From a candidate division FCPU426 bacterium (GTDB lineage: Bacteria; Oederibacteriota; JAAXVQ01; JAUVAV01), in contig JAUVAV010000022.1 in the NCBI GenBank assembly GCA_030591525.1, forward strand, positions 1-51,036: a DNA stretch of 51,036 bases, given 5' to 3'. The notes under the pieces were generated by a model. The model saw nothing but the letters and a program-made list of their open reading frames with translations. It was not told where the DNA came from and did not search any database. The position numbers and the translations under genes were made by a program. Shown piece after piece: positions 20,539-33,963 of this stretch (position 1 is its first letter; each line of letters opens with the position of its first letter).

Positions 20539-23500
20539 TCAGGCCGCCCGGTCCAAGGCGCGCGCCGGTTGACGGCGCAGGGGCAGAAGCTCGCGCCGCT
20601 TCAGCTTAAGTGGGAGGCGCAACTTTTCCAGCCTATTTAGCCAGAAACGCCTGTCAGAATGTGTTTGTAAAAGTATCGCCGGGAGCACTATTTCCCCCTG
20701 CTCCCTCATCGGCAGTGTGCCTTTCATATCGCCCACTTTAACTCCCCTTAGCCCGGGCACACGGGAGCAAACCTTACTTAGAGTAGCCAGCGATTCCAGC
20801 GCTGGTTGAGAATCGCCCAGCTTTTCCACTTCTTCCAGCATAAGCTCCATCCATTTCCAGGTTGTATCTCTCTCCGGCTTATCCAACCATTGCTCATAAG
20901 CCTGCCCGGCCGGGCTGTTTTTATTCAGCAACTGTTGAGCCAGCATCGACTTTTCATTGGTTAGCATCCAGGCTAGATATCCCTGGGGACCAAGTGCTAT
21001 CCGCTGGATTCTATCTATAACCGGCTGCCGCCATCCAGGTTTAACCCGGAGCCTGGTCAGCGCAGTATCCACGCGGCTGGTGGAATAAAAACCCTCCAGA
21101 TGATACTTCAGTATGATCCGCAAAAAGAAATTCATCTCCGAATCCCGGCTGTTAAGCAGCAAGGCATCCGGTACATGGATCATTGGTTGACCGTTCTCAT
21201 CCGGCCGTATCCTGCCCAGCGGGCTGAGTAAGCGCGAGATAAGACCCAGGTCCGAACACGGGCTAACCTGGATATTTGGCCGGATAAAATCTCCGTATCC
21301 CTGCCGGGCGAAAATTTTCACTGCTGTTTCGTCGGCTTGGATTTCAACCAGCAGCCGCTGTATGTCCGGCGTTTGACCGGCTTCCCTCCCAGGTCCGGCC
21401 TTTCGCGTTATTATCCACAACCATAGAGTTCCGGGCACAAGCAACAGCGCTCCCCGGAAGAAACTCACCAGACCTTCCAAAGGCAGCCGGGCCTTGAGAT
21501 TCCCGGTTTGGCTCAGGCCCGGGCTGAATAATAACCCGCTTAGGCAATAGAGAAATATTTTCCGGACCGGTAGCTTTTTACCGCGCAGGGGCTGATTGGG
21601 CCCTTTTTCCTCGGAATCTGGTGAGCTATCGACTTCTTCTGTTTCAGCCGCTTCAAACCCCACAGATTCCATCCATTGCTTGATTTTCCCGGCAACTTCC
21701 GGCGGATTGTTGACATCTATGAAATTTTTAAAACCTGCTTGGCTATCATTGGTATCGCTCAAATATAGAATTGCTTCCGGAATATGTTTTTTCTTGTCCA
21801 CGTAAGGCGAGTAAAATTCACCGGTAAAAATATTATTTTTATCAAACATCAAACGGTTGGCTTTCTCTATGGTTACTTTTATCCCTGATTGCTGATTCTC
21901 CAATCTTTGGGCAACTAACTCTATTATTTGTTCGACTCCCCGGCTGACAATTTTAATGTGAATATCTTTCCCGGTTATTTTTTGAATATCTTGTATAACG
22001 GAAATATATTTTTCATTCAATACTATGTCCCCGGCAATTTCCTGACACTGCTTTAAAGTAAGATATCCGGATAAAACTCTCCAGTAATCATTCAAAGTTT
22101 CCGGAGAAGGATTCTCCTCATATATTTCTTTATACTTTGCCAGTTTCTTATCAAACTCTTCTCTTTCTTGATTTGTTTTTAAAGATTTTTTTACTTTTTC
22201 ATCTATCCTCTCAGAACCATCTGTTATAGTATCATTAAAATCAGAATAGATAGTTAAAACCGGCTGCCCCTTCCAGAAACCTTCGATCATGGCCTCCCGG
22301 GATTCTTCGAAACGGATGATTTTGGCATCACTTGATCCCGCGTAGCTTCTTATAGTATCCCCATCTTCCAGCAAATAAGCGCCGGTCTCATAGATTACGC
22401 CGCTCACATCTCCTTTGGTATTTTTATCGGGAATATGCAAGGGAATCGGTTCTCCCAGGGGCTGCAAAGTTTCAGGATCCAACAGCACCAGAGCCGAGCG
22501 GTAAATTTTATGCTTGGGGTCTTTTACCCTGGCCTGATGAACTATGGCCATAATAAAATCCTCGCCCTCTTTGTAAGGTAAAATCGTGCCCAGCCCGATT
22601 TTGGGCCATTCTTTAGTTGCCCATAATATAGTGGATTCTTTCCTGGGATGCTCCCTCCAATATTGCATCGGAGGATGCAGGGCGGTTTTTAATTTATCAA
22701 AAATATATGCCTGCAGACCGGCCGTCGTACCTTGTATATTAGGACGGTCTATCAGGGCATATTTCCCGTTGGGCAGAGATATCAGGTGCGTGGTTTTACT
22801 GCTAACGTCCAGCCGGCCCAGTCTAACCGGGTCGGTTTTGGGATGTCCGCATTCATCAATAAATACTAAGTGGCAATGCCAAAGACTTCCTTCTTTATTC
22901 ACCTTTACATAAGTCATGGCCAGTTTCCCGTCTATGTACATTATCCGGGGATCCTCGGCGTCCTTCACGATTACTTCTTTGAACTCGAATTCAAGACCAT
23001 CTTTGTCAACCGGATGCAATCTTAAAATTTCACTTTTATGTATCCAATGAGTAGAATACATAAACCAAACTCTGCGTGCCAGTATATCGCCGTTGGGCAG
23101 CACTCCGGGATTGAGATCTTTATACAAAATTCCGTCGGCCCATTTCACTCTGATTTTTTGGCCCTTGTCCTTGCCAATTTGATCCATGGTCTCTGTAACC
23201 GGCTCTTCGTCAACCGGCTCTTCCTGGCTGCGCGTCCGGGATAATATTACTAAAACCGGGAGCGCAAATAAGATTGGGAGCGCGGCCAGGACCGGCAGGG
23301 CATTACAGGCCAGGCTTAATCCGATAATTTGCAATAAAATCAAGGGCAGGGCCTGGCCTCCGTACGCCAGGGTTTCAGTCTGCGAAGTGATTTTTCTGGA
23401 ATTCAAATAGACATGAATCCATTCATGCAGGAAGTAGAACCATTGGATAGGCTTGGGACGCTGACTCATAAACTTCTTGTCCGCGTAAATGGTAGTCCCC

Positions 23501-33963: not shown

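Follow-up and report, generated by a model that had tools for sequence, protein, structure and literature searches.

Giant open reading frames (ORFs) of the Omnitrophota are, in the part of the published account available to us, poorly conserved, carry few annotated domains and are defined by length, with the giant ORF of Ca. Velamenicoccus archaeovorus LiM reaching 39,678 residues (PMC10066038). Because the bodies are not conserved, the largest predicted bacterial proteins, those of the Omnitrophota and neighbouring groups, are hard to classify. Here we analyse a gene encoding a 4,474-residue protein on contig JAUVAV010000022.1 of a candidate division FCPU426 bacterium (the window: the whole 51,036-nt stretch of DNA that was analysed), and report that it belongs to a family of modular giants, apparently without a name so far, in which a common head and a common tail act as bookends around a variable middle. 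The window gene resembles the Omnitrophota giant ORFs, as that partial account describes them, in its giant frame, its membrane helices and its few annotated domains, but at 13.4 kb it lies below the >20 kb that defines the class. Omnitrophota giants also share the head of the window protein, a likeness that rests on frames from Omnitrophota-group genomes and not on the LiM giant itself. The literature searched, to the extent that its text was available, nowhere mentions a head or tail shared by giant ORFs, and an earlier description elsewhere is possible.

Two other systems provide points of comparison. TIKI-superfamily enzymes (erythromycin esterases, ChaN, Tiki, RRSP, and Bcr135) have a His-Glu pair together with another His that lies close to an Arg (PMC7979712, PMC6254334). 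Specifically, the catalytic residues are H50, E78, R261, and H289 in EreC, with spacings of 28 and 28 (PMC7979712), and H3902, E3930, R4001, and H4030 in RRSP, with spacings of 28 and 29 (PMC6254334). The window head is alike in predicted fold and in His-Glu and Arg-His spacing; unlike these members, it has Asp in place of the first Glu, an invariant Cys98, and a fusion to a giant body. MARTX toxins resemble the window family in having constant ends and exchangeable central enzymes, a likeness of anatomy and not evidence of homology; they can include a TIKI-fold domain, and the window family is headed by a TIKI-like domain. Unlike MARTX toxins, the window protein showed no Pfam match to RTX repeats or to a cysteine-protease domain (E up to 1), and it has a predicted N-terminal signal peptide and another kind of tail.

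Shared head and tail

The initial annotation had proposed a single 13.4-kb frame encoding 4,474 residues, and the frame holds: it starts with ATG, contains no internal stop, and has an orthologue in the same genus that reads through the same regions, with a nonsynonymous-to-synonymous ratio (pN/pS) of 0.22 across the head and of about 0.47 across the body. These values indicate purifying selection in every aligned part, weaker in the body than in the head. An assembly or gene-calling artefact fusing several genes might be suspected with contigs of metagenome-assembled genomes (MAGs), and some frames elsewhere are interrupted (G003:C12); given the single uninterrupted frame on one contig, the orthologue with the same order, the purifying selection, and the recurrence of these bookends on giants of eight genomes, we give it almost no credence.

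The family was first met by a search of the first half of the protein against six genomes of the same taxonomic family, in which the first ~470 residues recur repeatedly, typically heading large frames. The window protein's own genome contains 16 heads, in frames of 1,117 to about 6,600 residues, some cut at contig ends; these frames account for about 5.8% of the genome, and four are in tandem on one contig. The gene had been described as sitting alone between ptb and cheA; the flanking genes are as described, but the gene is one of many. A profile of the 16 heads has 8–33 matches in each of the 8 genomes of the order that were searched and one weak match across the other 37 genomes of the phylum, and relatives in the same family reach 9,482 residues (about 28 kb). 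A plasmid search with the head gave no match.

The initial annotation had pointed to Omnitrophota as the lineage in which to seek homologues. Because contigs of the same genus carry the label Firestonebacteria (CSMAG_1793) and those of the same family or order are from FCPU426 or Goldiibacteriota MAGs, the organism is of FCPU426/Firestonebacteria type and not a member of the Omnitrophota. The homologue search itself was fruitful: in a survey that started from two Omnitrophota loci, went on to their genomes, and then covered 145 genomes of the phylum, the head is present in 86 of the 145 Omnitrophota-group genomes, often in many copies each, at the start of frames of up to 23,964 residues with no gap seen at either end. 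A 35,113-residue head-bearing frame (G096:C37:79907-185156) was rejected as a size record, since a stretch of N interrupts it close to the end and makes its length unreliable. At the other extreme, ORF 1-1797 of locus L114 (Omnitrophota M55B170) is a 599-residue frame with little beyond the head, and the fused form may descend from a stand-alone head of this kind.

The heads start with a nearly invariant pattern, comprising a positive n-region, a hydrophobic stretch, Pro45, [T/S/G/A]-W-A, and then Phe51. In particular, P45, A50, and F51 are present in 16, 15, and 16, respectively, of the 16 heads of the own genome, and "xWA" is also visible in Omnitrophota-group heads. The N-terminal segment, previously taken as an anchor, is thus likely to be a cleavable signal peptide. 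A cytoplasm-facing, membrane-anchored multi-enzyme protein with the N-terminal helix as permanent anchor would suit the cytosolic-type enzymes and the many hydrophobic spans of the family; the conserved positive n-region, the helix-breaking Pro, the small residues at −3 and −1, and the recurrence of "xWA" in Omnitrophota-group heads argue against it, and we consider it improbable.

The head model and the active-site invariance counts rest on an alignment of 56 heads, which has 15 invariant columns, every catalytic residue among them. An AlphaFold2 (AF2) model from the 56 sequences, with a predicted local distance difference test score (pLDDT) of 83.8 and a predicted template modelling score (pTM) of 0.78, replaced a single-sequence model with a pLDDT of 36. 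The best five Foldseek matches of the model in the PDB are all Ere-type, with EreC first (prob 0.99, E 2.5e-3); ChaN is at rank 13. TM-scores for these matches are low, and the active-site residues were therefore compared. H97, E125, R383, and H411 are invariant in 56/56 heads, and the H97-E125 and R383-H411 spacings are both 28. Asp95 is present in 56/56 heads, where EreC (E47) and RRSP (E3900) carry the second Glu, and an additional invariant residue, Cys98, directly follows His97. Since Asp95 replaces Glu, although conservatively, we call the head TIKI-like at the level of the superfamily and not a member of Ere or ChaN. Sequence searches were nearly silent: a Pfam scan of the 56 heads found no family at threshold, the best being ChaN at E 0.064 for one sequence only; a PDB profile search with the head sequence gave no match; and stand-alone EreA and ChaN families were absent from the phylum sample searched. 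A fold search of BFVD returned chiefly uncharacterised giant-virus proteins. Judging from the model and the active-site spacing, the head is a predicted TIKI-superfamily hydrolase that is probably active, and it is a candidate protease that possibly cuts the giant itself.

The last ~385 residues match frame ends in six other genomes, and the closest heads, too, come from several of these; in the head tree, the window copy groups with the same-genus copy and three tail-matching orthologues with 98% support. An early view that the tail is restricted to orthologues of the window gene was dropped, as a 110-residue tail profile showed it to be present on almost every giant. The own genome has 15 tails and 16 heads; the counts in other genomes include 10/10, 8/8, and 28/33, and the most fragmented assembly has fewer tails. 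The frame ends in -AA in 40 of 57 cases and in A in 48 of 57, with an Arg/Lys cluster 7–13 residues upstream of the end, whereas -AA ends none of the 29 other genes of the window. Omnitrophota-group giants with closed ends have AA or SA in 13 of 17 cases. Proteases that read protein tails, such as Prc or ClpX, come to mind for Ala-Ala ends, and we infer from this pattern that the tail may be a sorting or processing signal. In another genome, a 9,269-residue frame (G003:C12:9115-39848) has no tail and the next frame, of 1,013 residues, has one; either the giant is split or frameshifted, or the assembly is wrong here.

Exchange of enzyme cassettes in the middle

Searches of the whole 4,474-residue protein against Pfam, NCBIfam, and PDB sequences returned almost no matches; the statement in the initial annotation that no named family covers the combination stands, as does its description of proteolytic-like, membrane, and carbohydrate-type parts in a single modular gene. 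The protein contains 21 non-overlapping hydrophobic spans, in agreement with the earlier count of about 15 or more, compared with 6.7 in shuffles (maximum 12). The four HExxH sites noted earlier are at residues 990, 1372, 2957, and 3513; four were reached by none of 2,000 shuffled sequences (mean 0.13). The HExxH count thus exceeds chance, and the zincin likeness is one of motif, with no Pfam peptidase family matched by the protein at E up to 1.

Two carbohydrate-type and phosphatase-type assignments fared differently. The GH130 (PF04041) match to residues 3668–3888 is borderline: with the cut-off at 26 bits, the protein scan scored 25.8 bits and the genome search 31.1 bits. This segment aligns to positions 98–310 of 320 of the GH130 phosphorylases and mannosidases and retains their EDPR motif; unlike those enzymes, it is partial and exchangeable, and the sister species lacks it in the orthologous slot. 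The HAD-IB-like match is weak (20.8 bits against a cut-off of 45), and its motif I, DFNDT, has Asn at the position of the second Asp of the phosphatase.

Comparison with the same-genus orthologue, which lies on three contigs, reveals replacement of whole segments between conserved ones. Identity is 84–86% in the head and 70% in residues 1150–2230. On the head-bearing contig, residues 778–1150 are swapped for ~800 others with three SIS domains; on another contig, the GH130+HAD slot (residues 3588–4088) is swapped for ~650 residues with an Mpv17/PMP22 domain and an APH-type kinase, and identity on the two sides is 75% and 68%. Since these two slots hold other enzymes in the sister species, the domain combination is not conserved and cannot be treated as the fixed unit first proposed. 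Distant orthologues carry a glycogen debranching enzyme, GH77, cytidylate kinase, and HD (G018), a glycosyltransferase (G002), or glucosamine-6-phosphate isomerase, a kinase-like domain, and HD (G003), and the domains met in paralogues of the own genome are triosephosphate isomerase, PPDK, NTP transferase, iPGM, methyltransferase, and abhydrolase. The own genome also has a stand-alone triosephosphate isomerase. Catalytic motifs are retained in the glucosamine-6-phosphate isomerase, APH, NTP transferase, abhydrolase, PPDK, and triosephosphate isomerase cassettes.

This variability raises the possibility of domain accretion, in which selection acts on the bookends (and membrane modules) alone and the middle is a passively growing mosaic of captured, often dead enzymes that adds bulk or length. 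The pN/pS of the body is double that of the head, cassettes vary even inside one genus, the HAD and cytidylate kinase motifs are damaged, and one giant has near-identical tandem triosephosphate isomerase copies. The body is nevertheless still under purifying selection, and the retained catalytic motifs listed above do not fit a mosaic of dead domains. We consider accretion doubtful as a full account, though worth serious attention; it accounts for part of the data and may apply to some cassettes.

Two cassettes are unusual in themselves. The Mpv17/PMP22 domain in slot 3587–4089 of the sister giant (L151, G004:C187) is best known from eukaryotic organelles and here lies inside a bacterial giant. 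In a 4,193-residue giant of the own genome (L035, G000:C78), residues ~2810–3330 hold two nearly identical tandem triosephosphate isomerase stretches, with the N-terminal GNWK part of one copy placed after the C-terminal part of the preceding copy and with active-site Lys, His, and Glu present.

A proposed exported platform and its alternatives

The anatomy (frame, bookends, family, cassette replacement, fold class, and catalytic spacing) is well supported; from it we infer the export route, cleavage, payload function, and target. The window gene probably, though far from certainly, encodes an exported, bookended modular giant. A Sec signal peptide would carry the protein out of the cytoplasm; the head, a putative TIKI-superfamily (EreA/ChaN/Tiki-type) hydrolase whose His-Glu-Arg-His site is intact, would follow; and the basic cluster and Ala-Ala (or similar small pair) of the tail would be a sorting or processing signal for envelope machinery. 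The middle would consist of membrane-embedded HExxH modules, repeats, and enzyme cassettes, swapped in evolution while the bookends remain. The bookends would most likely serve export, retention, and cleavage, the head and HExxH modules may be processing or attacking proteases, and the cassettes may be the payload of an envelope- or surface-held enzyme platform against other cells or their polymers. Among the readings weighed, the best fit is an exported platform directed at other cells or at polymers. The lineage-specific surface or periplasmic machine of the initial annotation survives in its exported or envelope part and not in its uniqueness, given the many giants that share its head and tail.

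Several observations weigh against an exported enzyme platform. Foldseek E-values are modest and TM-scores are ~0.2, and because of this the fold assignment of the head leans on agreement among the top matches and on active-site spacing; the head has Asp in place of Glu two residues before the His and the unusual invariant Cys98; no secretion machine is linked to the tail; and some cassettes, to judge from the HAD motif and the Walker A motif of cytidylate kinase, seem to be inactive. Finally, the SIS, APH, NTP transferase, PPDK, and triosephosphate isomerase cassettes are normally cytosolic and are odd for an exported giant, unless it reaches the cytosol of another cell.

Direct delivery into another cytosol would account for the cytosolic-type enzymes. 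In a MARTX-like device, constant arms would bring variable enzymes into prey or host cytosol, and a protease within the protein would free them. The constant N- and C-terminal parts with swapped centres, the dependence of payload enzymes on ATP or sugar phosphates, the several retained catalytic motifs, and the TIKI-fold endopeptidases known as MARTX effectors (PMC6254334) are consistent with such a device, as are giant peptides 3-fold higher in attached Velamenicoccus cells in the available part of that report (PMC10066038). In the window protein, however, no Pfam RTX-repeat or cysteine-protease processing family was found (E up to 1) and no translocation module was recognised; no host or prey is known; and an ATP/ADP translocase, a marker of host dependence, was not found in the order by a search whose control was also silent. 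We regard the MARTX-like device as rather unlikely. Also unlikely is a new secretion/effector system common to the Omnitrophota and the FCPU426-type order, with dozens of giants per genome, TIKI-type protease heads that would cut giants (substrates of the cell itself or of prey), a dedicated reader of Ala-Ala tails, and swappable enzymes delivered into other cells.

The consequences are practical. The common head, with its intact hydrolase site, and the C-terminal signature unite Omnitrophota and neighbouring giants into one recognisable family; head and tail profiles allow giants to be annotated and bookends to be parted from payload; and function, export, and processing can be addressed by experiments on fragments only a few hundred residues long.

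Features and genomic setting

Table 1. Segments of the giant gene, with window coordinates
Feature	Residues	Coordinates	Strand	Remarks
Giant gene, 4,474 aa + stop		20539..33963	minus	ATG start, no internal stop
Predicted Sec-type signal peptide, likely cut after T48-W49-A50	1-50	33814..33963	minus	conserved pattern
Shared head, TIKI-superfamily hydrolase-like	52-475	32539..33810	minus	D95, H97, C98, E125, R383, H411 invariant
Block with HExxH 1 (H990)	778-1150	30514..31632	minus	three-SIS block in same-genus orthologue
Membrane/HExxH module copy 1, HEFLH at 1372	1158-1455	29599..30492	minus	
Hydrophobic-span cluster	1500-1912	28228..29466	minus	~74% conserved in sister species
Divergent internal repeats, units around 2097, 2237, 2495, 2727	~2060-2900	25264..27786	minus	
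HExxH 3 region, HELGHYVHE at 2957	2930-3290	24094..25176	minus	zincin-like by motif only
Membrane/HExxH module copy 2, HEWIH at 3513	3342-3587	23203..23940	minus	
GH130-like propeller segment	3668-3888	22300..22962	minus	EDPR motif retained; slot swapped in sister species
HAD-IB-like segment	3906-4056	21796..22248	minus	weak match, motif I DFNDT
Conserved tail	4089-4474	20542..21699	minus	matches to other giants
Last 15 residues, LPLRRQPARALDRAA		20542..20586	minus	basic cluster, then Ala-Ala-COOH

The repeats at 25264–27786 of the window follow the pattern ELxIRYGVxVxGxxxQEE in at least 4 copies. The G+C content of the giant gene is 47.8%, compared with 51.0% across the remaining window. Its neighbours are ordinary genes: one side has the ptb-like gene (PTA_PTB) and genes for shikimate kinase, chorismate synthase, and a secretin; the other has cheA and genes for CheC and a PilM/FtsA-like protein.
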